In this document: positions 28,484 through 64,000 of the stretch, piece by piece
Numbering within the stretch: the first letter of the stretch is position 1
Layout: the number at the start of each line of letters is the position of its first letter
NCBI GenBank assembly: GCA_938743325.2
Contig: OW568862.1
Span: 969,501 to 1,033,500, forward strand
DNA length: 64,000 bases
Source: Pycnococcus provasolii
Lineage: Eukaryota > Chlorophyta > Pseudoscourfieldiophyceae > Pseudoscourfieldiales > Pycnococcaceae
Direction of reading: 5' to 3'
Position numbers and translations under genes: made by a program
The notes under the pieces: model-generated
What the model was told of the DNA's origin: nothing
The model's database searches: none
What the model saw: only the letters and a program-made list of their open reading frames with translations

Positions 28484-29558
28484 GACAAGGGGAGGTGTGT
28501 GAGACTTGTCCTGTCCTGTACTGGAAGAGACTTGCCACAGGTGGCAGGGTCAGACGAGACGTTCGAGGACCACTGGACCAGTCCTGTCGAGTGTTGACCA
28601 ATCTCACGGTCTCGTGCTTGACCGAATAGTGTAAACTGTAAAGTGGAAAGGTTTACATACTGGAGTCCAGGGCAGATGGCAAAGGGAGATCTTCAACCTT
28701 TCAACTGCCTGAATGACCTGAATGACCGCCGTATGTACTGTACCGTAAAGGTAAGAATACTGTCAAGTCTGTAAGTTCGTCCTTACATAGTTCTACCATC
28801 CATGGAGGTGATCCAACCTAAGTAGGTGGTCGTCCATGGGACAGTGGGAGTGGCCGCAGTGTATTCCTACCACTAGGAAGTAGGAAGTAGGAACCTTGTG
28901 CAAGACACCTCTGTACCACTCTGTGCTTTCTCCAGACTTCTCCTCTGTGGAGTCTGTGCAAGACCACCAGGCAGCTGGCTTGGCACTGGGAATTCCAGGC
29001 TCCTTTGATGTTTGATCAACGACTACTTGCACAGGTCCCTTGATGACCCTTGCACACACCTTGCACAAATGCACAGTTACACACAGGTCTAAATTCTAAT
29101 TAAGGTCTTGCAGCGGAATCTGGTTTTGCAACCTGGTCAGCCTAACCTCCATGGCCTTGCATAAACCTTAAGGTTAGGTGTCTTGCATACCGGCCGCGAA
29201 CTCTTTGTGTGTTTCTTGGCAGGAAGAGCTGTGGTCTGCTTTTCCTGGCCGGAAATTGTTTGACACCTACCCGGTACCCTAGGGGATACTAGGTGAAAGT
29301 GTGAAACCATATCTGCTGCAGGGTAATATTGTCTGGCGCCGGAGCTCGGAGATTGTGACGGGGCACACGTAGCATTACCCGTAACATTTTGCACGTTCCC
29401 CTCTCGCCGCCGCACGTACACCTCCAACCTGGGTTGCGCGCACACTTGCGGGTTGCGGCGCGGGCATACTTGTGGGTCTCGCCGCATCGGAGGGGGCGCG
29501 CGGCAAAACTGCGCGCCGAAGAAGGGGGTTCGACCCGTGGAACGCGTGCATAGAGACC
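28484..29558. other. Divergent intergenic region
   Basis: About 1.07 kb between divergent starts of the hypothetical protein and the Cache receptor. A TACTGTA box lies at 28736. The rest contains many short CTTGCACA/TTGCACAAG words around 28890-29070 and a single TTAAGGTTAGG word near 29168. No gene, tRNA or transposon was recognised. Confidence 0.5.
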
Positions 29559-32500
29559 ATGGCGGCGCGCATTGCTGGCTGGGTGCTCCTCCTCGGGCCT
29601 GCCTTGACGGCGGCGCGCACGTGCGGCTGGGATGGCAACGCAACGGACTTCTCCGCGCCGATTCTGCCCGAGAGGCAAACGCCGAGTAGGCCGAGCAGCA
29701 AGCCGTGCACGGTTGCGGCCGCAGCCGTGTGCGCGTGGCACGACGCGGCGTACATCACAGCGGCGGTGGCGAACGGCGTGAGAGGCGATAAGGGAGGTGG
29801 CAGGTTCACCGAGCAGTGGTTTAGCCAGGACGACATGTCGGAGGGAGCGCCGCGGGTGGTAGGAGGCTTTGCAGGGATGCTTTGCGTCGCGGATGGGAGC
29901 AGGTGCGCGACGTCCGCAGGAGTCAGTACCAAGGGAGACGCCACACCGCTGCGAACGTGGGACGAATACCTCGCCGCCGCGATCCCCTCGTCGGATGAGC
30001 TTAAAGTCGTGACGCTCTCCGTCCTCGCAAAGGAGACGGGAATGACGCTGGCCGCCGCAGCCACCGCGACAGTCGCATCGGCAGCGGACGCTGCAAGAGA
30101 CACCGAACACGGCGTGTGGACAGCCATGCCGCTGTGGTCGTGCGGGGCCGCCTTCAACCTCATCATCCAAAGCTCTTCCCATACTAGCTTCAGCGCTTCG
30201 ACGAAACTCAGGGCGTGCCAAGCAACGCGTGCAGGTTCCGGCGTACCTGAGATCGACCCGAGCATCGTGCTCTTCGCATATCTGCACGTTCGCTTCGTCC
30301 CACCGGATGCTGTCCCGCCCACCTTCATGATTCCCGGCACCGACCCGGACGACCCCGCACACGAACATGCGCGCAGTGATGGCCTCCTGAGCGTGTCGTA
30401 CTTTTTCGACTCCGAGGACGGCGAGATCCTGCCCTGCTCGAGCGGGGAGAGCTCCGCGTGCGCGCAAGCCAACACAGACTTGCTTGTGGGCCGCGCCAAG
30501 ATTGCGCTCGCGGGGTGCGAGACGAGTGATGAGTGCGCCTTCAAGGTGCTCCAAGCCATCACGTGGGACGAGCAGTACACTATCGGCAAGTCCGTCAGTC
30601 GGAACTTTTTCTACGCATTCGTCTGTACGGACGTGGGCGAGATTATCGCGCATGGAGCAGATCCACAGAATGTCGGCAAGAACATTGGCCTGGACTTTGG
30701 CGAGTATGGCGCAGGCGCATGGGAGGCGATCCAAAAAGCTGGCGCTCAGAATAGCGGCTTTGGCGGTGTCGCATCGTACATGTGGCCAACGACGTCGTGC
30801 CAGAAGAGCTATGATATAGACGGCGAATGTGATCCAATTGCCAAGGTATCGAATGTGTTTGCGTGGCACGCGCTGCGACACAAGCTCTTTGTGGGCGTGG
30901 AGTACAACCACATACGGCCCGCGATGGCACCTTTCGACCAGGGCGCTTCAAAAGACACAAGGGACAACAAATGTCCTGATGGCTACGCATCGCCGTGCGC
31001 CGCGAGCGTGTGCGACCGCCTCACGGCGCACGTGGTCAGCGCTCTCAGCATTTACGAGCCCGAGCAGGTGTTTGCGGATATCAACGCTATGTCGCCGGAA
31101 TACATGGAGGGGCAGTTCTACGTGTTTGTCCTCGACAGTTCAACAAGCTCTTTCCTCGCACACGGACAGCTTGGAAATATGGTAAGAAGCCTAACGCTCA
31201 TCGATGCCGTGGCCATGATCGGCCTTACGAACGAACAAATCAATGGCACGGACCTGTTCAATCAGATGCGTGCTATTGCAGGAGGGGGGGGCGGGTACGC
31301 CCGGTACAATTGGACGCACCCTTTGCATGGCGTCAAGCCCAAGCTCAGCTTTCTCCGACAAATCCAGGTTTCGGTGAACAACACGCCAAAGGAGGTGGTC
31401 GTTGGCGTTGGTTTCTCTGTCGCTCCGCTTCCGATTGAGCATAATCAAGGTGCGGGCTGCAATCTCGTACGGATATCGGCATGTTCGCGAAGAATCCTGC
31501 TCGGCGCCGTTGGCTATGCACAGGCTTCCTTGATTGATGCGCTGTCAGTCATTCACCATACAGGTGACGTAGCCGTATACAAGGAATGGCTTGAGGTTTT
31601 GGCGAATGGGACCGCGATCACGAAGTTGATTCCTATGATCGACGGAGATGAGTCAAGCGAATTCGACAACATTCGCCTTTCGCTTATCCATTTCACCGGC
31701 GTCTTGATGTCGTCGAGCGAGCTCGCGCACGACGGGAATGGCACGTGGGGCGTGAGGTACCCGCATGGCCTTCTCCAGAACCTTCTTTTCGACGAAAGCC
31801 GCACCATTGTTGGGGAGGATCTGCTTCAGGCGTGGACATCCATGAGCCTATCGGGCGGGGGCTTTGTTCGAGACGAGCTGATACGCAGGTACTCCGACCC
31901 GACGCTTACCGACCGCACGCCGAGATACGCATTAGTGTCATCTGAGATTTGCCACGTCGAGCTGTTCATTGGGGGGAGTAATTGCGCGATGATCGTCGCC
32001 GAGCAGCTCGACCTTGGCTGTGGTGAGGGCTCGATTCTCGTCGACGATTCGTGCGTCGAATGCCCCGCAGGGACGCATCACGCGAGCCCGGGAGATGCGG
32101 TGTGCACGCCTTGCCCGGCAGGCTCGTTCACGGCGTTTCCAGGGCGCACTGAGTGCACCTTGTGTGCTGAGCTACCGGACGCGCAGTTTCGATACCAGAA
32201 CAGCACGAACGCAACGAGTTGCGATCTGTGTCCAAAAAACACAGTTCGGTTTCTAACCGATCCAGCGACGAGCTTAGATGAGTGCCACTGCGTCGTCGGA
32301 TTCTTTCAGCGGGAGCGAGCGCCATTTGGAAGGGAGTGCGAACCTTGTCCGGAAGGCGGGACGTGCTTGGGCGCGGAAGAGCGGACGAACCGCGACCCAT
32401 ATCCCTTGCCGGGTTACTTTGGACTGAAGGATCACCCACACATGTTCGTCGAGTGTGACCTTGGAGAGAAGAACTGCATCGGCGGAGAGAGCTTTCTTTG

Positions 32501-35093
32501 TGGGGAGGGGTACTATGGCAACGTGTGCTCGGAGTGCGAAAATGGATATTTTCGCGTGTACGACACCGGCTACCCGCGCCAGCCCGCAGGAGAGGGCGCG
32601 TGCCGGAAGTGCGCGCCTGGCGCGGAGCAATGGGGCATCACCATCGTGGTTACGTTCCTTGTATTTGCGCTGTGGTTCGGGCTGAACGAAGTGCCGTTCG
32701 AGGCGCTCACCATTATGCTTGAATTCATGCAGATCAGCGACGTTCTCGGCCAATTCGACCTAGACTTTCCCCCTACCGTCAAATCCTTCTGGCAGGTGCT
32801 GTCGCACAGTGTGAACTTCGACGTGGACATCGTGGTGTACTGGCAGTGCCACGTCCCAACTTGGCGTTTCCAAGCTGCGTTGGTTTTGCTTTTTTCCATC
32901 GCCTGGGGAAAAACGCTTCTCGTAGCTCTCGTCTACTACGCCAGGGTATTTGCATTTTATCTCGTCAAGAATCGCCACCTTGAACGATTCCCGCCCTTCC
33001 TTGAAACGGATCAACGGTATGTGGACGACGGCCCCGATCGCCTCTTCGAATCGCTCCTTCAGATGCACTGGGTGATGTACTTGGGGATTACGACTCGCGT
33101 TTACGACGTGTTTGTGCATAACAAGCGGCCAGATGGCATCGCGTACATTGATGGGGCGAAGTGGGTGCTTGTTGACAGTGCAGCGTACAAGAGGTTGCTC
33201 CCGATAGCCGTCTGGGGCACACTCGTCTACGCCATTGGACTGCCTGTTTTTGTGTCCTGGGTGCTCATCCGCGGGAAGCAGAAGAATCTGCTATTGACAC
33301 GGCGTTACCTGACGCGCTACGGTTTTCTTTATCGAAATTATGTCCCCGAGCATTATTACTGGGAGCTCGTGATTCTCGCGCGGCGGATCACAATCTGCCT
33401 GACACTGCAGTTCGCCAGGCACGACAGCATGCTGCAGGCCGCGATCGGCCTCGTCCTGTGCGGCATCTTCATGAGCGCAACTTCGTACGCGCTTCCGTAC
33501 CGCGCCTCCTACATCGACAGGTTCGACTTCTTCCTGAACGTTGTGTCTATGATATACATCGTGGACGGTCTCGTCGAGACGTACAGCGACTCGGCAGTGG
33601 TGAAAAGTGCGTTTGAGGTTCTTGTCATGGGACTCTTCGCCATCTCCATCCTATGGCTCTTGGTGCTCCTGTTCATCGAGTACGACGAGTACAAGGCGCG
33701 ACTTAGCGCGGTTGCGACGTCATCGGCACGCTTCGGGAAGGTGCTCACCGAAGAATGCATCCCAGACGAGGGCGAGGCGGTGGAGGAAGCGCGCCAGCGC
33801 GTACGGCGCGTGATGTTGGCGTCGCGCCTGGCGTTCCGGCTCCTCGATCGGAATTGCAGCGGTCAGGTGAGCGTCGAAGACTTCGAAGAGCAATTCCCGA
33901 AGCTTTACGTCGACCAGGCGGATCGGCACACCATCACGCGCGAGCAGGCGAGAGGCCTCGTCCAGATAATGCACAGTTCCCGCGAGCAGGACGACGTGAA
34001 CACCATCGTGGAGACGGACTTTCTTGTCTACCTCGGTCGCGAGCTCATGTCGCGGAACGTGACACGACTCGGGCAAGGCAAGGGCTTGCCTTCGGAGATG
34101 CGCCGCCTGGGGCTAGACAAGCTTGGCATCACGGAAATGTTCATGACGGACGCGGTCAATGCGCTGGGTAAGTACGTTGAGTCACATCCAAACAGCAAGG
34201 AGGTGTTTGCAGAAACGCTGCACGACTTTGAGACGTCACAATTCTCGATCGAACAGAACGTGAAAATGCTTGGTGACTCCGTCTTTAGCGAGATTTTGGA
34301 GACGCTCGATCCCTACGGGATGATGATGCTGGTTGAGAACTTAACGAAAGACGAGGCGATGGAGGTCATCCGGCTGGAGAAGCTGTTGGACGCCACGCTG
34401 CATGACAGCGGGCGGACGTCTGACTACTCGCACTCTGTCCGTGCGCAGACGCTGCGTTGCTTCATGCGAGCGGCACCGTGCCTGCTGGAGTACCTGTCGA
34501 ACCCAGCGTTGTGCTCGAAGACGAGCCGGGACGAGATTGCGCGCATGCTGGATTTTGCGGTAGATGTGTACAAGGAGTGCGGTTCCCTCAACAACTCGTT
34601 CTCATCGATGGTGAATGTGCTGGACCAGGCGAGCATTTGCGATTGGCTCATGACGGCGGACGAGCGCGACCGCAGCTCGCTGTACTGGCTTATCAACGGC
34701 GTGCGGGCATCCCGGTACGTCGAGGCGTCGTCGCAGGGTTCGAAAAACACTCGGAAACCCTCTCAGAAGGCCTCGTGGGCGATGGCTGCGGGCGATATGG
34801 TCAGGGGCAAAGAAACGCCGATGAAGCGCTTTGTGATGGGTCGATGGCAGAGTGCGAAGGATCGTGTGAAGTCCTTAATGCTTCCGTCGTTGTCGGAGGA
34901 TCGATCGTCGTTGCCAGAACGGCTTTCCAAGAAGTTCGTCAAAGGACTTTCGCGAAATTCGAGCAACGCCAAAACTGGAACTTCGTGGGGACGCGCCGAG
35001 GTCCATCCCAGTCCTATCGTTCCTGCGGCACCCTGCGCCGACAATGCTCTGCCCGCACTGTTCACGGGAGACGGCGCCGACGCCACTGTGTAG
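29559..35093 (+). CDS. Cache-domain receptor with Cys-rich stalk, multi-TM core and EF-hand
   Basis: 1,844 residues from ATG 29559 (the open frame extends upstream only by a TTG). Probable plasma-membrane sensor. Seen: signal peptide AARIAGWVLLLGPALTAA; extracellular Cache-like domain near residues 345-410 with FFYAFVCTDVGEIIAHGADP, VGKNIGLDFGEYG and a WP end; a second Cache-like unit near 515-625 (QFYVFVLDSS, FLAHGQLG, YARYNWTHP); a Cys-rich GCC2/GCC3 or TNFR-like stalk near 825-1015 (CVECPAGTHHASPGD, CTPCPAGSFTAFPG); about seven hydrophobic helices between 1025 and 1380 (for example GITIVVTFLVFALWFGL, LLPIAVWGTLVYAIGLP, YWELVILARRITICL); an EF-hand loop DRNCSGQVSVED near 1428; and a long helical tail. 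The ARR after WELVIL is typical of GCC2/GCC3 7-TM proteins of protists. Substrate and signal output are unknown. Confidence 0.85.
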   Translation: MAARIAGWVLLLGPALTAARTCGWDGNATDFSAPILPERQTPSRPSSKPCTVAAAAVCAWHDAAYITAAVANGVRGDKGGGRFTEQWFSQDDMSEGAPRVVGGFAGMLCVADGSRCATSAGVSTKGDATPLRTWDEYLAAAIPSSDELKVVTLSVLAKETGMTLAAAATATVASAADAARDTEHGVWTAMPLWSCGAAFNLIIQSSSHTSFSASTKLRACQATRAGSGVPEIDPSIVLFAYLHVRFVPPDAVPPTFMIPGTDPDDPAHEHARSDGLLSVSYFFDSEDGEILPCSSGESSACAQANTDLLVGRAKIALAGCETSDECAFKVLQAITWDEQYTIGKSVSRNFFYAFVCTDVGEIIAHGADPQNVGKNIGLDFGEYGAGAWEAIQKAGAQNSGFGGVASYMWPTTSCQKSYDIDGECDPIAKVSNVFAWHALRHKLFVGVEYNHIRPAMAPFDQGASKDTRDNKCPDGYASPCAASVCDRLTAHVVSALSIYEPEQVFADINAMSPEYMEGQFYVFVLDSSTSSFLAHGQLGNMVRSLTLIDAVAMIGLTNEQINGTDLFNQMRAIAGGGGGYARYNWTHPLHGVKPKLSFLRQIQVSVNNTPKEVVVGVGFSVAPLPIEHNQGAGCNLVRISACSRRILLGAVGYAQASLIDALSVIHHTGDVAVYKEWLEVLANGTAITKLIPMIDGDESSEFDNIRLSLIHFTGVLMSSSELAHDGNGTWGVRYPHGLLQNLLFDESRTIVGEDLLQAWTSMSLSGGGFVRDELIRRYSDPTLTDRTPRYALVSSEICHVELFIGGSNCAMIVAEQLDLGCGEGSILVDDSCVECPAGTHHASPGDAVCTPCPAGSFTAFPGRTECTLCAELPDAQFRYQNSTNATSCDLCPKNTVRFLTDPATSLDECHCVVGFFQRERAPFGRECEPCPEGGTCLGAEERTNRDPYPLPGYFGLKDHPHMFVECDLGEKNCIGGESFLCGEGYYGNVCSECENGYFRVYDTGYPRQPAGEGACRKCAPGAEQWGITIVVTFLVFALWFGLNEVPFEALTIMLEFMQISDVLGQFDLDFPPTVKSFWQVLSHSVNFDVDIVVYWQCHVPTWRFQAALVLLFSIAWGKTLLVALVYYARVFAFYLVKNRHLERFPPFLETDQRYVDDGPDRLFESLLQMHWVMYLGITTRVYDVFVHNKRPDGIAYIDGAKWVLVDSAAYKRLLPIAVWGTLVYAIGLPVFVSWVLIRGKQKNLLLTRRYLTRYGFLYRNYVPEHYYWELVILARRITICLTLQFARHDSMLQAAIGLVLCGIFMSATSYALPYRASYIDRFDFFLNVVSMIYIVDGLVETYSDSAVVKSAFEVLVMGLFAISILWLLVLLFIEYDEYKARLSAVATSSARFGKVLTEECIPDEGEAVEEARQRVRRVMLASRLAFRLLDRNCSGQVSVEDFEEQFPKLYVDQADRHTITREQARGLVQIMHSSREQDDVNTIVETDFLVYLGRELMSRNVTRLGQGKGLPSEMRRLGLDKLGITEMFMTDAVNALGKYVESHPNSKEVFAETLHDFETSQFSIEQNVKMLGDSVFSEILETLDPYGMMMLVENLTKDEAMEVIRLEKLLDATLHDSGRTSDYSHSVRAQTLRCFMRAAPCLLEYLSNPALCSKTSRDEIARMLDFAVDVYKECGSLNNSFSSMVNVLDQASICDWLMTADERDRSSLYWLINGVRASRYVEASSQGSKNTRKPSQKASWAMAAGDMVRGKETPMKRFVMGRWQSAKDRVKSLMLPSLSEDRSSLPERLSKKFVKGLSRNSSNAKTGTSWGRAEVHPSPIVPAAPCADNALPALFTGDGADATV

Positions 35094-47412: not shown

Positions 47413-49287
47413 TTACATAAGCGTGCAATTGCTAGTGCTGCTGCGCCTGCTGCTGGCGCTTGCCTGCTGCCGTTGTTGCGCCTGTTGTTGGCGGGCGCGC
47501 TGCTGCTGCTGCTGCGCCTGTTGCTGCTGTGCAAGCGCCTGTGCTTGCTGCTGGCGGATGCGCTGCTGCTGCGCCCCCTCCCGACGTTTGCGCTCAGCCT
47601 CCTTTTCCTCCTCCTCGAGCTGAAGCGCGAGCGCGAGGTCAGCATCCTCCTGCTGCGTTGTGCCTGGGCTGCCTGGCGCCACTGTGTTCGCACCTGCCGC
47701 CTGTGAGAGCAGCGTGGCTGCTGTCGACGCCTGCGCGGCTGTCGCGGCGGTGTCCCCCATGCCAAATTCCGTAAACTCGTATGTGTAGTACCCACCCGTG
47801 CCCCTCACGGAGTTGAGGCGCTCCCACACGAGACGTGTCTCCTTTTCGTATCCTAAGTCGGTCACGAGGATGTATAGCTCACCGTCGCGCTTGATGATGG
47901 TGCTAAAGTGATTGTTCCTGAAGAAGACAGCAAGCTCCCTTTCTTTCACCGCGTCGCGAAGTTTGCGCAGGCCGGCTTGTGTGAGCTGCGTGGCCGTCTC
48001 GTCCAAGAATCGTCGAATCTCGAAGCCTCTTGCCATCGGATCAGCCGACTGCATTGCATGCACATCCCTGTCAAGAGCTGGCGTGGGCAGCGACATTGGC
48101 GACGCTTCCTCGGAAAGCAGGTCGGACATGGGTGGGGACAAGGGAGATGGCGACGGTTCGTGCTGCACATTTTGCCGTGATTGTATGGGTTCGCCGCTGC
48201 CAATCTGCATGGGCATCGTACCACTTGGTACTCGCGGCATCGTCGGCGTTGCAGCTTCCGCCGCGTCTCCTACGATCTCTTCCGGCTCCGGCTCTGCCTC
48301 TGCGGCTGTCGCTGTCGTGGTGGTATTGGTTGGTGGTGGTGATGGTTGTGGTGGTGATGGTGGCACCGGCAACGTCGCCGTTTCGGTGACAGGTGCAGCA
48401 TCTACCTTCTCTTCGAGCGACAGGGCAGCAAGCTCTGCAAACGGGTCACGAGGCTGTTCCTTTTCCGGTGGTGGTGCTTCTGGTGGTGCTGGTGGCTGTG
48501 GTGCAGTGGCACTTTCGCCCCCAGCCCCTGCTGCCGCAGCCGGTGTCGTCGAGAGCGAGAGCGCGAGTGCCTGTCGCAGCTCGTCTTCGTCGTCTTCCCC
48601 TTCTTCGTTCTGTACAGGTGCAGGTGCTGACACGACTTCTTCGCTCTCTTCGTGTTGCGTGTTGGTTGAAGGTGAAGCCGACGCCGCGTGGTTGGCACGG
48701 AACGTGTTTTGTATGTTCGCGTCGTCGAGCACGGAGGGCGACTTGGGACTGACGCACGACACGGCGAGCGCGACGCACTCGTTGTAAGATGATCCTCCGA
48801 TGGCTGTTGCGGCGTCTGGGTCAGCGTCCGCGTCGACGACCCATCCGTGCAGTAGGGGAACGTCGAAGAGGTCGAAAATGGCCACCTCGTCGGTGAATTC
48901 GAAGTCGGTAGGCGAGCGGAAGCGCACGTTGACGTCCATCCCCGTCGCAAGCTTTGGCAGTTGTGCGACGGCATCCGCGACGTTCTGTTCATAGTTTGCT
49001 CCTGAGGCGATTTCGGTTCCCGCTTCCCCCGCGTTGTCGTCGAGGAGTTTGTTGGCGAGGAGCGCCTGCAGTGCGTCGAGCGCGACGACCCCAGATGGCG
49101 CTCGCACTTCGATGCGTCCTCTGAGAATCAGGGCGTTGGCGAGAGCAACGAGCGGGCACGGTCCGTTTTCGTTCTGGAGGATGATGACGCAGTCTCGAAG
49201 AAAAAAAGAGATACGCTTCGTGTGGAAGAGCAAACCTGCATTACTACTACCTGCACCTGCACCACCGGCAGCAGCAGGGGCGGACAT
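47413..49287 (-). CDS. MINDY-1/2-like deubiquitinase with CaaX end
   Basis: Cysteine peptidase that trims K48-linked polyubiquitin chains. 624 residues from ATG 49285-49287. Seen: LQNENGPCPLVALANALIL with the catalytic Cys at residue 44; IASGANYEQNVADAVAQLP and DVNVRFRSPTDFEFTDEVAI; ELFDVPLLHGW-like text (FDLFDVPLLHGWVVD) near 140; then a long Pro/Glu-rich insertion (residues about 215-410); and the His block NNHFSTIIKRDGELYILVTD near 455. C-terminal region is Gln/Arg-rich and probably coiled. The final residues are NCTLM: C-x-x-M, a farnesylation-type CaaX box. The insertion splits the domain, which is longer than in animals. Membrane attachment is inferred from CaaX only. Confidence 0.88.
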   Translation of the reverse strand: MSAPAAAGGAGAGSSNAGLLFHTKRISFFLRDCVIILQNENGPCPLVALANALILRGRIEVRAPSGVVALDALQALLANKLLDDNAGEAGTEIASGANYEQNVADAVAQLPKLATGMDVNVRFRSPTDFEFTDEVAIFDLFDVPLLHGWVVDADADPDAATAIGGSSYNECVALAVSCVSPKSPSVLDDANIQNTFRANHAASASPSTNTQHEESEEVVSAPAPVQNEEGEDDEDELRQALALSLSTTPAAAAGAGGESATAPQPPAPPEAPPPEKEQPRDPFAELAALSLEEKVDAAPVTETATLPVPPSPPQPSPPPTNTTTTATAAEAEPEPEEIVGDAAEAATPTMPRVPSGTMPMQIGSGEPIQSRQNVQHEPSPSPLSPPMSDLLSEEASPMSLPTPALDRDVHAMQSADPMARGFEIRRFLDETATQLTQAGLRKLRDAVKERELAVFFRNNHFSTIIKRDGELYILVTDLGYEKETRLVWERLNSVRGTGGYYTYEFTEFGMGDTAATAAQASTAATLLSQAAGANTVAPGSPGTTQQEDADLALALQLEEEEKEAERKRREGAQQQRIRQQQAQALAQQQQAQQQQQRARQQQAQQRQQASASSRRSSTSNCTLM

Positions 49288-51952: not shown

Positions 51953-52362
51953 ACTACTACGAGTATGTAGTGATGGGACGCGACGACACACAAATGACGC
52001 CGCCCGCCGACGACGACTGGCAACGGGTGGAAAGCTGTGGCGGGACCGGGACCGGGGGGTGAGTAGAAGCCGCCTCAGGTAACCCTAACCCTAACCCTAA
52101 TCCTAACCCTAACAGGTTCACCCAAACCCGAACCCGAACCCGTTCTTTCCCATCCCCAATCATGCTGTAGAATTCCCCGACCATTTCCCCTGACCAAAGT
52201 TAGATTCGTAATATTTATTTATCCACTTACCCTCGTGCCTACCGTTCTTTTTCCTTAAACGACTTCTTGCTCTCTTTCTTCTTCTCCCCCGCGGGAGGGA
52301 GTTGCTGATATTTCATCACAACACACACATTTATTTGTTGGATCATACAGTAGTACCTAGGC
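51953..52362. other. Divergent intergenic region with CCCTAA array
   Basis: About 410 bases between the phosphate carrier and SDR starts. A CCCTAA array is listed separately. A TACAGTA box at 52346 lies 11 bases before the SDR ATG. Confidence 0.55.
52081..52114. repeat. CCCTAA telomere-like array
   Basis: About five CCCTAA units with one CCTAAT variant, followed by AACCCG repeats to about 52143. It is in the phosphate carrier/SDR divergent promoter, 130-280 bases from each start. Confidence 0.9.
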
Positions 52363-53487
52363 ATGTCCCTCCTCGGCTCTTCCTCCTCTTCCTCTTCCAT
52401 GTGCAGGCGGATTAAAAATCAGTCTGCAGGATCACGTCTCCAGTGCAGTATTACGTCTCGTTCTCAGCCTCGTTCTTCATCAGCGAGGAGGCCGATGGTG
52501 AAAACGCGTGCGCAGACGCTCCCGACGATTTCGTCCGTCATCATCACAGGAGCAGGTGGGAAAACGGGAAAGGCGGTGTTCGCGAAGTGCGTGCAAGATG
52601 CAGAACTCGAACGTGTTGTTGGGGTCGTGCGGACCGAAAAATCAAAGAAGATGGTGGCAAGCTTCGCGCCTGACGCCAAAGACGAAGATGTCGTCGTCGC
52701 TTCCATCGTCGACGGCACATCCGTCAAGGATGTCATCAACGAGGGAAAGTTTGACGCGCTCATCTGCTGCACGTCCGCGACGCCGAGAATCATGAAGAGA
52801 TCCATCGTCAAGCTGCTCGTCACCAAGGTTCTCAACTTCATTCCAGGAGTCAACATGAAGCCGGCGATGCCGACGTTCCGCTGGCCGGAGAACGGAACGC
52901 CTGAGGAAGTTGACTGGGAAGGACAGAAGGCGCAGTTCGACGCGGCGGTGGAAAGTGGTGTGAAGCTTGTCGTCGTGTGCAGCTCCATGGGAGGAACGCA
53001 GGACGACAACCGCCTGAACGCGATCGGTGAAGGGAATATCCTGAAGTGGAAGCGAGCGGCGGAGCGATATCTCATCGAGCTCTGCAAGGGTACCAACGGA
53101 AAAACGAATTTTACGATTGTGCACCCCGGCGGTCTGAAGGGAAATTGCAAAGACCTTGAAGCGGAGGGTGGCAAAGTCCAACTAACGGTTGGAGTGGATG
53201 ACACTCTCCTCGAAAATGAATACCGCTCCATCCCTCGTGCCGACGTCGCGGAAGTCCTCTTCCAGTCCCTGAAAACGTCCGAGGCGTTGAACAGAAGCTT
53301 CGACGTTGCAAGCCTTCCCGAGGGCGAGGGGGTACCGTTCGACGGTGATCTGGGAACGCTGCTGTGTGACGGTCTTCCAAAGCAGTCTGTTAAGGGTGGA
53401 ACATGCGATTACACACTCGGTGAAGTGTTCCCACCGAGCACGAGTGGTGTGGAAGAAGAGGAGGAGGCGGAGGCGAAGACAGCTTAG
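52363..53487 (+). CDS. Plastid-type atypical short-chain dehydrogenase (At2g37660/Tic62-like)
   Basis: NAD(P)-binding Rossmann protein. 374 residues from ATG 52363. Seen: Ser/Arg-rich transit-like N-terminus (about 60 residues); cofactor motif ITGAGGKTGKAVF (G-x2-G-x2-G form); a Tyr-poor active centre: the usual Ser-Tyr-Lys set is replaced by CSSMGGTQ, as in atypical SDRs; conserved TFRWPENGTPEEVDWEGQKA, which corresponds to the plant FR-P-ATPEEVDWxGQ text; LKWKRAAERYLIEL; and FTIVHPGGLKGN. Plastid location is inferred from the N-terminus and family. Substrate unknown; some relatives bind ferredoxin-NADP reductase. Ends in a Glu-rich tail. TGTAA is about 30 bases past the stop. Confidence 0.88.
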   Translation: MSLLGSSSSSSSMCRRIKNQSAGSRLQCSITSRSQPRSSSARRPMVKTRAQTLPTISSVIITGAGGKTGKAVFAKCVQDAELERVVGVVRTEKSKKMVASFAPDAKDEDVVVASIVDGTSVKDVINEGKFDALICCTSATPRIMKRSIVKLLVTKVLNFIPGVNMKPAMPTFRWPENGTPEEVDWEGQKAQFDAAVESGVKLVVVCSSMGGTQDDNRLNAIGEGNILKWKRAAERYLIELCKGTNGKTNFTIVHPGGLKGNCKDLEAEGGKVQLTVGVDDTLLENEYRSIPRADVAEVLFQSLKTSEALNRSFDVASLPEGEGVPFDGDLGTLLCDGLPKQSVKGGTCDYTLGEVFPPSTSGVEEEEEAEAKTA

Positions 53488-55479: not shown

Positions 55480-57840
55480 TCACTCAAACCCACCCTGCCA
55501 ACCGCCGAAGAGTGACGGAATACTCCCAAACATTCCGCTGCTTGATGCCGCGCGCTTGCTCATTCTCTCCTCTCCTAGTTGTTCCTGCTCGTCGTCCCCG
55601 TGCTGCTTACGTTCTCGCTTCAAGCGCCAACTCCTGCCCGTGCTTGAAGATGGAGCGTGATCTTTGCCTGATCTTTGATCTTTGAGTTCTCTCATTCGAT
55701 CTTCATAAGCGGAAGCTTTCAGCCTGAGAGCATCACCCTTCTTTTTTGTCTTCAGACACGGCGGCACTTTGCCTTCTTTTGCGGTGAAGGCCTCCCTCAG
55801 GCGCAAGACGATGAGGTCATGGATGCTTCGCGCCAACCGCCGCTGCTCACCATCCTCAAGCTTTGGTAGCGAGTCCAGTTCAGATTGGGTCGCCATCCCA
55901 TCAAACATGTCGAGAGCGATCTTCACGCGACCTTTCTCAGATTCCTTGAACACCGGCATACTCTCGCCGATGCCTTTCGACATTAGCCACAGGTCTTCCG
56001 CCAAGTACTGGTTTGCCTTCGCGAGTTGTGGGACGTTCCCGATGGGCTGAAGAAGAAGCGCATTCCCAACTGGCTTCTTGCTAGCCGCCGCAGCACCGTT
56101 TGAGTTGCCCGCCGCCGCCGCAGCACCGCCCGAGCTGCCCGCCGCCGCCGCAGCACCGTTTGAGTTGCCCGCCGCCGCCGCAGCACCGCCCGAGCTGCCC
56201 GCCGCCGCGGCAGCGCGTGAGCAGTCTAATTTGTCACGAAGATCAAGGACTTCCTTTCTCAGGCTGTGGACATGCCTTCCGAGGTCCGCCAATGTAGTGC
56301 TCAGCGCGCGTATCGCTTCACTTGCGTGGATAGCATGATCTGAGACGGCGGCTGTCGCGACCCGTGGCTGCGCACGTGCAAGGAACGCGGAGCGCACTGT
56401 GCGCCCCCAACTCACCACGACTTCATGCGCGCTCCGCCCTCCGGCTCCGCACTCCATCGACTCGACTGTTTGGATGATCTTCGCTTGAACCGAACGCGCT
56501 TCCCCCGCGTTCCAGCGCTCCTCGAAGTACATTATCAACGCCGCTGCAGACGCACGCACGCCTTCGCGAAATGCGTTGCCGACGCGAAGCGTAGGTGGAC
56601 TCGCCGAGTCAAACGAAAACAAACGGTCCACAAATGCGTCCATCGTTTCGCTGGAGATGCCGTGTATTGTAGTAATTGCTCTGAGCGAGGGCGCGCTCGG
56701 GCCCTTCGTTAAGGTTCCCCACGGTGGAGGTTCCCATCCTGCGAGAACCATCGCCCCAGGTACGCACCTGGCGTGTGTGCAGTCCAGGTACTCGTAGAAA
56801 GCAGACGATCCACTCAACTCGTGTCCAGTGGTGGTGGTGGCGAACTCTGCTGGCACACTGCTTGCAAGCATATTGCAGGCACCCGGCCGGATTCCTCCAG
56901 CCGTCGTGGTTTGTGGCACATCGCAGGCAACCGCTTCGTATTTCTTCGTAGCCACACCTCTAGCAACACAGCGCAGGTACGACGTTAGTACCGCCCGAAC
57001 TGCGCCGGCGCGATGGAGCTCCGGCAACATCCAATTGTCCGTCCTGTCAGAATTGTACATTGGCCTTGTAGTTGCGAGGTAGTCTCCATGCGCTGCGTAT
57101 ATGCAGCAGTGGCGGTCCACACCTGGGACCCAAACGACGAGCTTCTCTCTCCCTGTCTTCATTTGAGCCCACGCTTGCCCTGCATTTTCGAATTCTGCAT
57201 CCCACTTAAGGGTCGTGTCGTATGTGCTCCACTGCACTTCTGAGGCGCGACCAGCGCTAATCCAAAGGTTCATGAGCGTGAAGCGCCGTGCGAGTGCCTC
57301 CTGGCTTCCCTCCATCACGAGTGCGCGTGAGATTCTCTTTATGTGCTCCAAGTACACAGGCGCTGCAGACTGGTCAAGGCAAGCACCTTCTTCGACGGCG
57401 TGGCCGAATAACGCTCTGTGCATCTGTCTCCTCAATCCTTGTAGCCACACCGCTGGTTCCGCGTTGGACCCAATGTCAGTGCAAGTAAAGAAAAGCCTTG
57501 TGGCTGGTGCTCCATTTGCCTTGAATCGGTCAGATCCTGCTTGTATCGCGTAATTGAGGTAGTTGCGTGCTGTGTTCACTTTGAGCCGCTGGCCATCCTT
57601 GATCTTGTACTGCTCGACTAAGAACCCTGCGAATCTCGCGTATAGTTCCCTGGAACACACCACGTCCTCCGGCAAGTGGTCCAGGTCCGTGTGGCCGCGT
57701 GTAATTTGCCGTGCCTCCGGCACAGCTTCAATGAACATGTGAAAGATGTTCTTGATAGTTCTCTTCGAGGCAGTCCATGAGGCGCTCGAGCCTTGCGATC
57801 CGAGCGGGCGGTTCGTGCCCGTGGCCACGGCGGGCGTCAT
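55480..57840 (-). mobile_element. Tyrosine-recombinase-like protein, Crypton-like
   Basis: 786 residues from ATG 57838-57840 (GTG further upstream). Seen: N-terminal helical region with ARNYLNYAIQAGSDRFKANG (core-binding type); RRFTLMNLWISAGRASEVQW, with the first catalytic Arg context, near 195; and GIRPGACNMLASSVPAEFAT followed by TTGHELSGSSAFYEYL near 330, fitting box II (R-x-x-A, TGH, Tyr nucleophile candidate). Then an Ala/Gly/Ser repeat region near 541-587 (five GAAAAAGxSxG units) and a C-terminal helical and Arg/Lys-rich domain. This order (YR core, coiled region, basic tail) resembles Crypton transposases. No terminal repeats or target duplication seen, so a domesticated copy is possible. 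An 8-base CTAGTCGT array lies directly upstream. Confidence 0.65.
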
Positions 57841-57933
57841 GATGGCGGGAGACGGGAGAATGGGGAGGGTGGATGACGCTGTCTTCGTCAAGGGGTGGAT
57901 GACCCAGGCCACCCCGTCGCGGTCCAGCTCGAA

Positions 57934-58213: not shown

Positions 58214-58322
58214 ATTAGGGTTAGGGTTATTAGCGGGTTAGGGTTAGGGTTAGCGGGTTAGGGTTAGGGTTATTTGCGGGTTAGGGTTAGGGTTAGCGGG
58301 TTAGGGTTAGCGGGTTAGGGTT
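58214..58322. repeat. TTAGGG telomere-like array
   Basis: About ten TTAGGG units with interspersed TTAGCGGG and TTATTTGCGGG variants. It lies 140 bases upstream of the CX9C gene start. Confidence 0.92.
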
Positions 58323-58989: not shown

Positions 58990-60150
58990 TTACATCAGCG
59001 CGCAACCACTACGTGGGCCGCCGCCGCCAGCAACCATGCTGACTTCCGAGCTCGAGCCTACAAGACGCTCGAGGCCGCCGCGTGCCTCGACGTCCCAAAA
59101 CAAACGCTCGACGAGCTCGTAGCGATGCTTCATGCTCGAGCCGAGCATTTGCTGCTTTGTGTCGCCGTCGACAAATCCCAAAACGCTCAGGCAGCGGCAT
59201 GCCCACCAGCTCAGTTCCGTCGAGCCGAGTGGGATGTCGCCACCAACCTCGTCCCTGAATTCGCGAAAGAAAAGTGAGTCGCCGTGCGTCGTTCGCATCT
59301 GCTGCCACAGCGTCGAGCACTTTTCGCGCACGCGCTGCTCCACGTCGTCGTACTCGTCGCCGTCCTCGACAAGCTCCGCCTCAGCCACCTTGTACCCAGC
59401 CTCGTCTGTTGAGCTTGACAGAATTCGCATCGGCCGCTCACCCATGAGGTGTATCAGGTATCGTCCGTCTGGTATCATCTGCGAATTCACAATATTCGCC
59501 TCACAGAAGTAGGTGTAGACACCGTTGTGCGAAGAGGCTGCGGCGAGGCCAATTTTGTTGTCTCGCTCGAGTGCCCGCCTCACGAGGAGTCGGTACCTTG
59601 GTTCGAAAATATGAAGTTGAAGGCTCTGTCCCGGCAAAACCGTCTCCATAACGAACAGTCCCACCGTGCGTGGCCCGTCGTTAGTGCGCGGGGTGTCAGC
59701 TGTGGACTCTTCTCGTTGCAGTTGCTCGTTTCGTCTCTTTTCGAGTGCCTTAGGGTACATTTTCCGGATATAATCGTTGAGCACAACCGTCGCGGGTGGT
59801 GCGTGCGTGTGCATCGCCCTCCTGCAGAGAGGACAGGCGGATCGTCGTCGGAGCGCGCTTGCGAGGCACGTCGAGCAGAACGAGTGTCCGCACGGTGTCG
59901 TGACTGCGTCGAGGAAGAGCTGAAGGCATAGCGTGCACTCGAAGCACGAGTCCACTTCTTCTTCGTCTGCGTCACTTTCTGTGCGCGCCGCCGTCACCGC
60001 CTCGACGAGCGTTTCTGACGAGCGCGCTCTTTTCACGTCCGGTTCCGGAACTTTTGCGCTTTGTTCGTCATCCTCCATCGCTGCCGGGCGAAGCGATGTG
60101 AAAGTGATGGGGGACGAAGACTGAAGAAGACACGTCACCACGTCACCCAT
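58990..60150 (-). CDS. RING-LON protein with CaaX end (LONRF-like)
   Basis: Probable E3 ubiquitin ligase. 386 residues from ATG 60148-60150 (alternative MEDDEQ at 60076-60078; upstream frame only by GTG). Seen: an acidic N-terminus; a C3HC4 RING at residues 72-109 with C-x2-C, CGHSFCSTC and CPLC; a short helical linker with DYIRKMYPKALEKRRNEQ; a LON-N domain to about 370 with GLFVMETVLPGQSLQLHIFE, RYRLLVRRALE, and WWACRCLSVLGFVD; and final residues SGCALM, a farnesylation-type CaaX box. Animal LONRFs have tetratricopeptide repeats plus RING, which are absent here. The CaaX box predicts membrane attachment (inference). Divergent from the GNAT gene by 129 bases. Confidence 0.88.
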   Translation of the reverse strand: MGDVVTCLLQSSSPITFTSLRPAAMEDDEQSAKVPEPDVKRARSSETLVEAVTAARTESDADEEEVDSCFECTLCLQLFLDAVTTPCGHSFCSTCLASALRRRSACPLCRRAMHTHAPPATVVLNDYIRKMYPKALEKRRNEQLQREESTADTPRTNDGPRTVGLFVMETVLPGQSLQLHIFEPRYRLLVRRALERDNKIGLAAASSHNGVYTYFCEANIVNSQMIPDGRYLIHLMGERPMRILSSSTDEAGYKVAEAELVEDGDEYDDVEQRVREKCSTLWQQMRTTHGDSLFFREFRDEVGGDIPLGSTELSWWACRCLSVLGFVDGDTKQQMLGSSMKHRYELVERLFWDVEARGGLERLVGSSSEVSMVAGGGGPRSGCALM

Positions 60151-60279
60151 CAATTCCGAGTGCGGTTCAGGGACGGATCCCCTGGACGATTTTTCACGAT
60201 GAGTCTCACAAAGTGAAAGCCGTGCAAGTGAAAGTCTCACCGACTGCAAGGGCCACCTCCAGTCACATAGAAGCGAACC

Positions 60280-60996
60280 ATGGCGACGATGGCCCCGCCG
60301 CCCCGTGTCGTCATGGCCGGCGGCGCAGGCGCTACGCCGCACTCGGCGACAGAGAATATTCCGACGACGACGGTCGTCATGGCCGGCGGCGCAGGCGCTA
60401 AGCAGTACGGCGTAGAGAAGGGCATCCGCCTGGAAAATATTTCGCCGGCGACGTACGCGGGTACGGCAAAGCTCTTCAGCGACTTTATTGGTGGCAAAGG
60501 CTTGTGCTTTGGCATATGCTCATACGCGTGGTGTCCGACGGAAGTGCAAGAGTACAGCAAACTGTACGAAATGCACCCGGACCTACGCGATACCACCGTG
60601 GTCGCCGTGCGCGAGGCTGATGGCGTCGTCGTAGGTGTGCTGAAGATGTCTGTCTACGGCCAGCCTCGTTCGAGCGAAGACGAGATGATACACGCAATGA
60701 CGTTTGGTGAAGCTTACATCGAACACGTTGCAGTTTCGTCGGAAGCGCGTGGTAAGGGCGTAGGCACGCGTATGTTGCAGTGGGTCGAGGCGAAGGCACG
60801 TGAGCGTGGCGCGACGCTGTTGACGCTCCTCGTTGTGAGTGGCAATCCCGCGTATCGTCTGTACGAGCGCGCCGGCCTGGTCGCCAAGCCGGATGGTTGC
60901 GTTGAAGGGTGTTATTCGTCTTGTTTGAGCGCGTGTTTGGTCGGCTTGCCGCACGGCCGGTGCGGCGCCAAGAAGATGGAGAAGGCCCTCAGATAG
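60280..60996 (+). CDS. GNAT-family N-acetyltransferase
   Basis: Transfers acetyl from acetyl-CoA to an unknown amine. 238 residues. Seen: a duplicated N-terminal peptide VVMAGGAGA (about residues 10-18 and 32-40) separated by a short Ser/Thr stretch; GNAT strand/loop with YIEHVAVSSEARGKGVGTRM near 150-170 (motif A, R-x-x-G-x-G acetyl-CoA loop); and VVSGNPAYRLYERAGL (motif B). The N-terminal region may be a transit peptide or a natural repeat; transit is inferred only. The tail (YSSCLSACLVGLPHGRCGAK) is Cys-rich. TGTAA follows the stop at 60999. Shares a 129-base divergent promoter with the RING-LON gene. Confidence 0.87.
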   Translation: MATMAPPPRVVMAGGAGATPHSATENIPTTTVVMAGGAGAKQYGVEKGIRLENISPATYAGTAKLFSDFIGGKGLCFGICSYAWCPTEVQEYSKLYEMHPDLRDTTVVAVREADGVVVGVLKMSVYGQPRSSEDEMIHAMTFGEAYIEHVAVSSEARGKGVGTRMLQWVEAKARERGATLLTLLVVSGNPAYRLYERAGLVAKPDGCVEGCYSSCLSACLVGLPHGRCGAKKMEKALR

Positions 60997-61090
60997 ATTG
61001 TAATTATTACGTAGAGTGAGGCGTCTTATTTTTTTTTCATGGGCACGGCCATTAGTTGGTATTGAAACTGCCATGCATGCCAAGGCAAAG

Positions 61091-61168
61091 TTAGGGTTAG
61101 GGTTAGGCGATTAGGGTTAGGGTTAGGCGATTAGGGTTAGGGTTAGGCGATTAGGGTTAGGGTTTAGG
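61091..61168. repeat. Telomere-like array of 20-base units
   Basis: Three exact copies of TTAGGGTTAGGGTTAGGCGA and a partial fourth, 123 bases upstream of the prefoldin ATG. Confidence 0.95.
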
Positions 61169-61875: not shown

Positions 61876-62498
61876 ATGAAAATATTATTCACACACACAC
61901 ACACACACATACACACACAAACCACGAACATAAATACACGACGAGGTGGTAACGAGGTGTTGAGAACCACCTACCTGGACGACTGCTGGAGCCTGGAGGG
62001 GAAGAAAAAGGCGCGCCATACATAGGACTGACCATGACGAACAAAAACACACCTTGGAACGAACAAAGAAAAACAGGTCCCTACTAAACCCTAACCCTAA
62101 CTCCAAGATTAGGGCTACAGTAACCCTAGTCCTAACCCTAACCCTAACCCTAACCCAGGGCAGTTCGTTCATCGTTGTTGTTTCTGTTTCCTCCCAATGG
62201 GCAAGCAATCTCAGGTAACTTATTAACTTATTACAGATGTGAATTGTGCACAGAATGAGACAAAACGGTTAAAAGGTTTGACCAAGCTTAACAGTTGAGC
62301 TTTTCCCACCTTAGACTACCCTTAAACTTTACCGGGTAACATTTCCTGACCTATTACCCGGTCGAAAGATTGGCAACCTTTCCCTTGCAAGAGGTCCTTG
62401 CAAGCCCCTCTCCTCTCCGTCCTCGGCCCCCCCCGCCCCCGGGACTCCCCCGAAGGGTCGGCCAGTTGACTCCAGTCAGAGCCCCTCCAGAGCCAGCC
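61876..62498. other. Intergenic region with CA repeat and telomere-like array
   Basis: About 620 bases. A (CA)n tract at 61891-61918 follows the prefoldin stop; a CCCTAA-type array is listed separately; a TACAGTA box is at 62117. GTTACCCGG words near 62340-62360. No gene was recognised. Confidence 0.5.
62086..62158. repeat. Mixed-orientation CCCTAA/TTAGGG array
   Basis: Two CCCTAA units, one inverted TTAGGG, then six CCCTAA/CCTAGT units. It lies about 340 bases upstream of the last gene. Confidence 0.9.
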
Positions 62499-64000
62499 AT
62501 GGACCAGCTCGCGCAGGCTGTGAGCGTCGTCGTGCGCAAGTCGTCGCGCGAACGGCCGCGCAGATTCCGGGTCACCGCGCTCGAAATCGCGCCCAGGTCT
62601 GTCCAGACGCTCGACGAGGGGGAAAACGAAAGACACGCGACGCTGCACATCACCGTGCTCGGTGACGCCATGCCCAAGTCGTCGCCGTACCACACAGGCG
62701 TGTTCCCGCTCGAAATTCGACTGTGCCAGCCGAGGTCAGGGCCGCCGGTGGCCACCGCGCTCAGGTTCGTCGCGGACGTGTACCACCCGGCGTTCAACAG
62801 AACGAGAGAGGGCGTCGACCACACGCAGTGCGACCACACGCTGCCGAGCCTGCACCTCATGTCGCCGAGGCTCTGGAAGATACTCGAGGAAGTGTGGAAC
62901 CTCCTCGTCGACGGAGGCGACGCGACGATGAACTCGAGCCTGCAGGACACGACGCGCTCGAGTGCGGGCCTGGCGCTGGCCCGCGAGAGGGCGCAAAGTC
63001 CTTCCGTCTTCAACAGTAAGGCGATGTCGTGGTCAGCCGCCGTCGACGCGGCAAGACCGAGGCTGCGAAGACAAACGTTAGACCCGACGTTCGAGGAACT
63101 CTTCGACGGGCCCGACGCGACAGCGAAGTTCACAGAAAGGCTGCGCCGCGAGGGTCGGCGCATCGACGTGGCGGCCAAGAAGCTGCTTCCTGAAATAAGA
63201 AGCGAGAAGCTGGCGCAAGGACGCAGTGGCGCCGCTACGACGCGCGTTCGCCCTCAGTTCCTCTACACACGATCGCTCGCATTCCAGTACCGGCACAAGC
63301 TCGGTGCGCAGCTGTTCGAGGCGTTCGATGGAACGTTCTTGTCGAGTGCGGACATCATGCCGGCGCCGACATCCTCGTTCCCGAAGGAGGCGGCTACGGC
63401 AGGAAAGCGCGTCGGGTCGACGGTGCCGCACCCGATGGCTGTCGACGCCTTGTACGGACCGCCAAGCCTGAGCGCGCCTCCCGTTCCTATCGGGCAGCCT
63501 ATCGTGAAGGACGCCGGACCAACGCAGGCGGTGGTGCACGTGACGATGCGCAGCAAGCGCTACGCGTCGGGCCCGGGAATGAATGGTGGGTGCGGGGCAG
63601 TCGTTTCGATCGATGGAATCGCGTACACCAAGCGCGTTGACGTGAACTTCATGCCAGGAGGCTACTCGCTCCTGCTCCTGCGCGACACCGACCTTGCCGT
63701 GCTGCACTATGCGCAGTACTCGCGAAGCCATCCCAGTGGACTGCGCGAGTTCTTCGCCGCGCTGATGAGCCGTCCGGGCGATAGCATCGCTATCGCGTTC
63801 GTCGATAATTGGCAGGCGGACGGCGTGCGCGACGCTTCGTGGATCAGCGCCATGGGAACGAATGGTGCGGATCTCCTCCGCAAGTGTGGATGTCGCGTGT
63901 GGCCGAATGCGCTGGACGAGGCGGCTCGCGCTGGACGGCAGGCGTGCCTGCACCTGAAGGACCATCCTAGCAGCGGAATCGGTTGGGATCGAATCGGTGG
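62499..64000 (+). CDS. E2/UEV-like domain fused to ILEI/FAM3-like domain, 3' end beyond window
   Basis: Open from ATG 62499 to the window edge, at least 500 residues. Seen: residues about 40-150 follow the ubiquitin-conjugating fold: GDAMPKSSPYHTGVFPLEIR, then RFVADVYHPAF, then DHTQCDHTLPSLHLMSPRLW and KILEEVWNLLVDG. In true E2 enzymes HPN is followed by the active Cys; here Cys111 (HTQCD) is near the right place but the text is closer to inactive UEV/AKTIP types. Residues about 340-490 resemble an ILEI/FAM3-type domain: GGYSLLLLRDTDLAVLHYAQ, LREFFAALMSRPGDSIAIAF and WISAMGTNGADLLRKCG. A middle region (160-330) is helical, rich in Arg and Ser. The pairing is unusual and both calls rest on pattern memory. 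Role unknown. Confidence 0.55.
   Translation, partial: MDQLAQAVSVVVRKSSRERPRRFRVTALEIAPRSVQTLDEGENERHATLHITVLGDAMPKSSPYHTGVFPLEIRLCQPRSGPPVATALRFVADVYHPAFNRTREGVDHTQCDHTLPSLHLMSPRLWKILEEVWNLLVDGGDATMNSSLQDTTRSSAGLALARERAQSPSVFNSKAMSWSAAVDAARPRLRRQTLDPTFEELFDGPDATAKFTERLRREGRRIDVAAKKLLPEIRSEKLAQGRSGAATTRVRPQFLYTRSLAFQYRHKLGAQLFEAFDGTFLSSADIMPAPTSSFPKEAATAGKRVGSTVPHPMAVDALYGPPSLSAPPVPIGQPIVKDAGPTQAVVHVTMRSKRYASGPGMNGGCGAVVSIDGIAYTKRVDVNFMPGGYSLLLLRDTDLAVLHYAQYSRSHPSGLREFFAALMSRPGDSIAIAFVDNWQADGVRDASWISAMGTNGADLLRKCGCRVWPNALDEAARAGRQACLHLKDHPSSGIGWDRIG

Follow-up and report, generated by a model that had tools for sequence, protein, structure and literature searches.

The question raised by this locus is whether the open frame that runs off the 3' end of the window (the whole stretch of DNA analyzed, 64,000 nucleotides) encodes one protein in which an E2-type ubiquitin-conjugating fold is joined to a domain of the ILEI/FAM3 kind, as had been proposed from the letters of the sequence in an earlier note.

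Coding frame and E2-like core

The visible coding frame lies on the plus strand from the ATG at 62499 to 63998, comprises 500 residues and continues past position 64000. In the ORF list of the window, the same frame is free of stops from 62340 to 63998. Its codon score was 0.26, the nine window genes used as the training set lying at 0.17 to 0.44, and the score was positive in nine 240-base steps from 62450 on, those of the linker included, while the step at 62300, most of which is 5' of the ATG, gave −0.20. The motifs quoted in the earlier note were all located in this single frame: PYHTGVF at residues 63 to 69, YHPAF at residues 95 to 99 (62781 to 62795), MSPRLW beginning at residue 121, GGYS at residues 387 to 390 (63657 to 63668), and PGDSIAIAFVD at residues 426 to 436 (63774 to 63806). 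A splice boundary separating the two parts had been named there as evidence against their union. Neither such a boundary nor a stop was seen between the two halves of the genomic frame, which runs straight through the linker (63114 to 63524, plus strand, about residues 206 to 342). The linker is partly rich in Pro, Ser, Gly, and Ala, which make up 52% of residues 280 to 340, and residues 171 to 340 scored 11.1 against the GG profile and 9.8 against the E2 profile described below.

The E2/UBC-like domain was assigned to about residues 1 to 205 (62499 to 63113, plus strand), with its outer limits set by hand and inspection, and the statistically matched core is residues 59 to 138 (62673 to 62912). 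The best match found by phmmer against PDB sequences was E2 13 (Ubc13; E = 2e-4, residues 51 to 108). With a profile of four E2s the ORF ranked first among the 583 ORFs of the window (E = 5.8e-5; next, 2.5), and it was again first of 583 with five E2s (E = 2.2e-4; next, 2.4). The HMM-HMM comparison (hhalign) with eight E2s gave a score of 39.5 (P = 9.6e-6, probability 83%) that was reached by none of 300 shuffles (maximum, 23.0), and the alignment extended into the WKILEEVWNLL helix; with six E2s the score was 36.4, again reached by 0 of 300 shuffles. Apart from AKTIP, the sequences in these E2 profiles were entered by hand, and UEV was represented by one row of the profile in the HMM-HMM comparison. 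The E2-type core claimed in the earlier note is therefore supported by the PDB search, the ORF ranking, and the HMM-HMM comparison. In the search against Pfam UQ_con (PF00179) that it had suggested, the curated cut-off of 27 bits was not reached: the N-terminal 160 residues scored 17.6 bits (E = 0.003), and the whole protein gave E = 0.027.

The conserved stretches PxSPYxxGxFxLEI and RFxxxxYHP, followed by a helix, occur in the same order in E2 enzymes (Ubc13, PF00179) and in the window protein. The structure model consulted for the UBC fold had a mean pLDDT of 34.5, too low for the fold to be read. The locus contains one coding frame with an E2-like core, and by its profile matches the core in the N-terminal half is judged to be real and non-canonical.

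The C-terminal half and the ILEI/FAM3/GG family

Other proteins that carry an ILEI/GG domain are secreted, reside in the Golgi, or belong to phage tails. The domain common to ILEI, FAM3, and POMGnT1 is called the GG domain and has a history in tail fibres. The region proposed to belong to it is about residues 343 to 500 (63525 to 63998, plus strand), and the proposal is based on remote HMM-HMM similarity; the local match covers residues 364 to 470 (63588 to 63908), beginning with the strand that precedes GGYS and ending at LLRKCGCRVWPN.

Direct searches of Pfam, PHROG, and PDB with the C-terminal half gave no useful match. The search for Pfam ILEI (PF15711), which the earlier note had recommended, gave no match to the C-terminal half, while the same search found the controls FAM3C (1e-29) and POMGnT1 (8.6e-27). 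PDB gave a single row for this half (auxin IAA4 domain, E = 0.088), which was taken as chance.

Since POMGnT1 matched phrog_1154, a long tail fibre proximal connector, at E = 1.1e-6, profiles were built from animal and phage members together. The seed consisted of six sequences, namely, FAM3A, FAM3B, FAM3C, POMGnT1, and two phage domains (L001 and L002); ten phage loci (L013 to L022) were added for a 16-member profile and eight more (L023 to L030) for a 24-member profile. The window protein played no part in the choice of members, which were collected by their likeness to POMGnT1 and the two phage domains; the phage members were chosen from lists that covered 40 of 177 records in one search and 15 of 15 in another. 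L003, which has stops in frame, L004, L005, and L007 to L012 were left out, and L006 was rejected as a family member when it failed the profile threshold. As a positive control, the six-sequence seed recovered 10 of 11 further loci at E = 1.9e-7 or better. In these collections, T4-like, Alteromonas, Lactococcus, Lactobacillus, and Streptococcus phages were found to have the animal FAM3/POMGnT1 domain in their tail proteins (L001, L002, and L013 to L030).

With the 16-member profile, the C-terminal half gave an hhalign score of 25.4 that was reached by none of 1000 shuffles (mean, 12.3; standard deviation, 2.3; maximum, 23.8), and the C-terminal segment, with 25.2 against 21.6 for the next, ranked first among 797 segments drawn from all frames of the window. 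With 24 members the score grew to 27.7 (probability 34%, P = 4.2e-4; 0 of 500 shuffles as high, maximum 21.0), and the segment was again first of 797 (26.4; next, 21.4). Column-permuted profiles reached the score in 0 of 200 cases (maximum, 18.5), and the reversed profile gave 12.0. The cross-controls gave 9.5 for the E2 half against the GG profile and 10.5 for the C-terminal half against the E2 profile. The phage members alone gave 24.0 (maximum of 200 shuffles, 18.4), whereas the four animal sequences alone gave 17.2, within the range of 200 shuffles (maximum, 22.7), and a different alignment.

Other comparisons were negative or marginal. Four profiles (the four animal sequences, these plus two phage domains, 16 members, and 24 members) were never significant in hmmsearch, where the best result, with 24 members, was fifth place among the ORFs at E = 6.9. 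When six single members were used in phmmer, the ORF was reported for three of them, with E no better than 39 and ranks of 25, 68, and 157. In pairwise comparison, the scores with FAM3B, FAM3C, and POMGnT1 were within the shuffle range, and that with FAM3A was reached by 46 (BLOSUM62) and 22 (BLOSUM45) of 1000 shuffles. In a MAFFT alignment with the animal sequences, the C terminus of the window protein was scattered across long gaps. By an ungapped PSSM the segment came second among the 583 ORFs, but its score was negative and 20 of 2000 shuffles were as high, which is no more than suggestive. The structure model consulted for the three-layer beta-beta-alpha fold had a mean pLDDT of 35.6, too low for a fold reading.

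What stands of the earlier ILEI/FAM3 claim is thus a remote HMM-HMM likeness to a profile that contains phage members; Pfam ILEI and the animal-only profile did not bear it out. The alternative is that the N-terminal half is E2-like and the C-terminal half is unrelated or lineage specific, its match to GG/ILEI being a chance likeness of strand-helix-strand pattern. This would agree with the lack of a Pfam, PHROG, or PDB match, with the failure of hmmsearch and of the metazoan-only profile, with an HH probability of just 34%, and with the loss of several invariant residues. It does not agree with the first place among 797 segments obtained with two profiles, with the controls in which 0 of 1000, 0 of 500, and 0 of 200 were as high, or with a score that climbed as members were added. 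Chance likeness is considered unlikely, though a serious contender, and on the profile comparisons the C-terminal half is probably a GG/ILEI-like domain of remote homology.

The conserved positions were examined on the 24-member HH alignment, onto which seven invariant positions from the six-sequence seed alignment were read. Two of them are kept, namely, the RG glycine (Gly388) and the LGS glycine (Gly464), while the RG arginine, the FD aspartate, and the LGS serine are lost. In the HH alignments Asn437 occupies the late Asp column, with Asp436 adjoining, whereas in the hand alignment Asp436 itself does so; the last Arg column meets Arg480 in a forced global alignment only. Compared with ILEI/FAM3, the POMGnT1 stem, cell surface hyaluronidase (PF15711), and phage phrog_1154, the window protein has the conserved stretches in the same order, its Gly388 and Gly464 stand on conserved Gly columns, and it shares LLRxxGxxxWP with the phage members. 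It differs from PF15711 and phrog_1154 in that the Arg of RG and the Asp of FD are gone, the late Asp is off by one, a 9-residue insert is present, no Pfam match is found, an E2-like domain is attached, and no signal-like stretch is seen in the visible part. According to PMC9802357, POMGnT1 binds GlcNAc via Arg129, Asp179, and Arg207, which are common to FAM3 proteins. The mapping of these residues onto the window protein is our own, and by it the first sugar-binding Arg is lost, being replaced by Gly387 (HH alignment) or Pro386 (hand alignment). With the first Arg lost and the other two positions dependent on the alignment, POMGnT1-type sugar binding by the window protein appears doubtful.

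Catalysis, kinship, and a possible role

The Cys that had been claimed at residue 111 is encoded at 62829 to 62831 (plus strand). In HMM-HMM alignments with eight and with six E2s it reaches the column of the catalytic Cys after a gap of 5 residues, the placement of which is partly due to the Cys match itself; a contrary placement, with Asp107 opposite the Asp of AKTIP, was obtained in the AKTIP pairwise and AKTIP-only HMM alignments. That C111 falls on the catalytic column is an argument against a dead E2, and together with the presence of only six Cys among the 500 visible residues it favors an active but atypical ubiquitin-conjugating enzyme in which C111 would be catalytic and the C-terminal domain would select substrates or place. 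Against such an enzyme stand the departures from E2 enzymes (PF00179): HPA (residues 96 to 98) in place of the absent HPN tripeptide, an active-site loop after HP that is longer by 5 residues in the alignment or by 7 if SP is anchored by hand, polar neighbors of C111, and a UQ_con score under the cut-off, to which the dependence of the gap on the Cys match must be added. A further difference from E2 enzymes is the extra C-terminal domain. An active enzyme is held to be rather improbable, and catalysis is predicted to be lost or changed.

A UBC-like core that departs from E2 enzymes at catalytic positions, combined with an added C-terminal part, is also the arrangement of inactive E2 variants (AKTIP/FTS and UEV). 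The window protein might be a divergent AKTIP/FTS, the member of the HOOK-FTS-FHIP dynein-adaptor complex, to which a C-terminal domain has been added. When the two are aligned by hand, HP..T..(E)GVD is similar to the AKTIP stretch HP..T..GELD and the N-A-LFD-P spacing equals that of AKTIP, and according to PMC10294612 apicomplexans have FTS. Sequence comparison with AKTIP nevertheless yielded a likeness no better than that of shuffled sequences, which equaled the hhalign score against AKTIP alone in 83 of 300 cases and the pairwise scores in 237 and 133 of 1000 for the whole N terminus and in 131 and 58 of 1000 for the core. Moreover, with AKTIP the ORF was outside the best eight window ORFs, where an antisense frame scored E = 0.007, and no AKTIP match was present in the PDB phmmer results for the frame. 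Unlike the general E2 likeness, specific kinship with AKTIP is not supported by sequence, and an FTS identity is considered a poor prospect.

A lectin-E2 in one polypeptide, that is, an atypical active ubiquitin-conjugating enzyme that finds its substrates via its own glycan-binding GG-type domain, would be a long shot; if it were true, no separate targeting subunit would be needed for ubiquitin to be placed on cytosol-exposed sugars of damaged organelles or engulfed microbes. A chance union in one frame, whether of two genes or through an artefact of the gene model, is scarcely credible in view of the single stop-free frame and the coding signal through the linker in the genomic sequence, which ends before the 3' end of the gene.

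The reading we favor, at somewhat short of an even chance, is one protein of a eukaryotic microbe in which a flexible linker connects an atypical E2-like N terminus with an ILEI/FAM3/GG-type C terminus, the whole acting as a two-headed adaptor. Like inactive E2 variants, it would bind a protein partner through its UBC fold, and its GG-like domain would take a second ligand, which could be a protein or else a sugar, the latter bound differently since the first binding Arg is gone. By analogy with FTS in FTS-HOOK-FHIP, such an adaptor is the most economical role to predict for a protein with an atypical E2-like domain; FTS is described in PMC11996680 and PMC8730729 as a catalytically dead E2 within that complex. 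A strongly hydrophobic stretch that might serve as a signal peptide or membrane span was not found in the visible 500 residues, so the protein is likely to be cytosolic, provided that translation does begin at 62499.

Novelty and surroundings of the gene

To our knowledge, no protein pairs an E2-like domain with an ILEI/FAM3/GG domain. No report of the pairing was found in the literature, which is a weak negative, and the sequence searches covered viral, prokaryotic, and phage collections. No relatives of the window protein were found in the viral and prokaryotic contig collections searched, either with the protein or with a FAM3/POMGnT1 alignment, and the phage collection gave one record at E = 0.9. 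The pairing is apparently new. If both halves are right, an ILEI/GG domain would be placed in a seemingly cytosolic ubiquitin-type protein, a pairing unprecedented to us, and the protein would form a bridge in the GG family, its score being 27.7 with animal and phage members combined and 17.2 and 24.0 with each apart. Should the E2-like assignment alone hold, the protein would be an ordinary divergent E2-like protein.

The gene content of the window is eukaryotic, with long uninterrupted ORFs, and includes prefoldin, a MINDY deubiquitinase (47413 to 49287, minus strand, E = 3.3e-81), a pyruvate-dehydrogenase-type acyltransferase, a P-type cation pump, an ABC transporter, a RING plus LON-domain protein (58990 to 60342, minus strand), ATG27, and a KN homeobox gene. 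The MINDY and RING plus LON genes are no more than about 15 kb away from the E2-like gene. An 810-residue ORF (55480 to 57912, minus strand) has no Pfam match and contains a 60-base tandem repeat at 56084 to 56214. An ORF of 1873 residues (29472 to 35093, plus strand) gave weak matches to Cache, ephrin-receptor-like, and TRP-channel families, all of them near or under the cut-off, and perhaps encodes a large sensory membrane protein.

Telomere-like TTAGGG/CCCTAA arrays are present at 52080 to 52145, 58215 to 58322, 61090 to 61164, and 62089 to 62156. The sequence CCCTAACCCTAA has 14 exact matches in the window where none is expected, one (17629) inside an ORF and the other 13 in four gaps upstream of the plus-strand ORFs that start at 52363, 58462, 61291, and 62499. 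Two of these four array-bearing gaps also face the start of a minus-strand ORF, and the arrays are perhaps a promoter-linked element.
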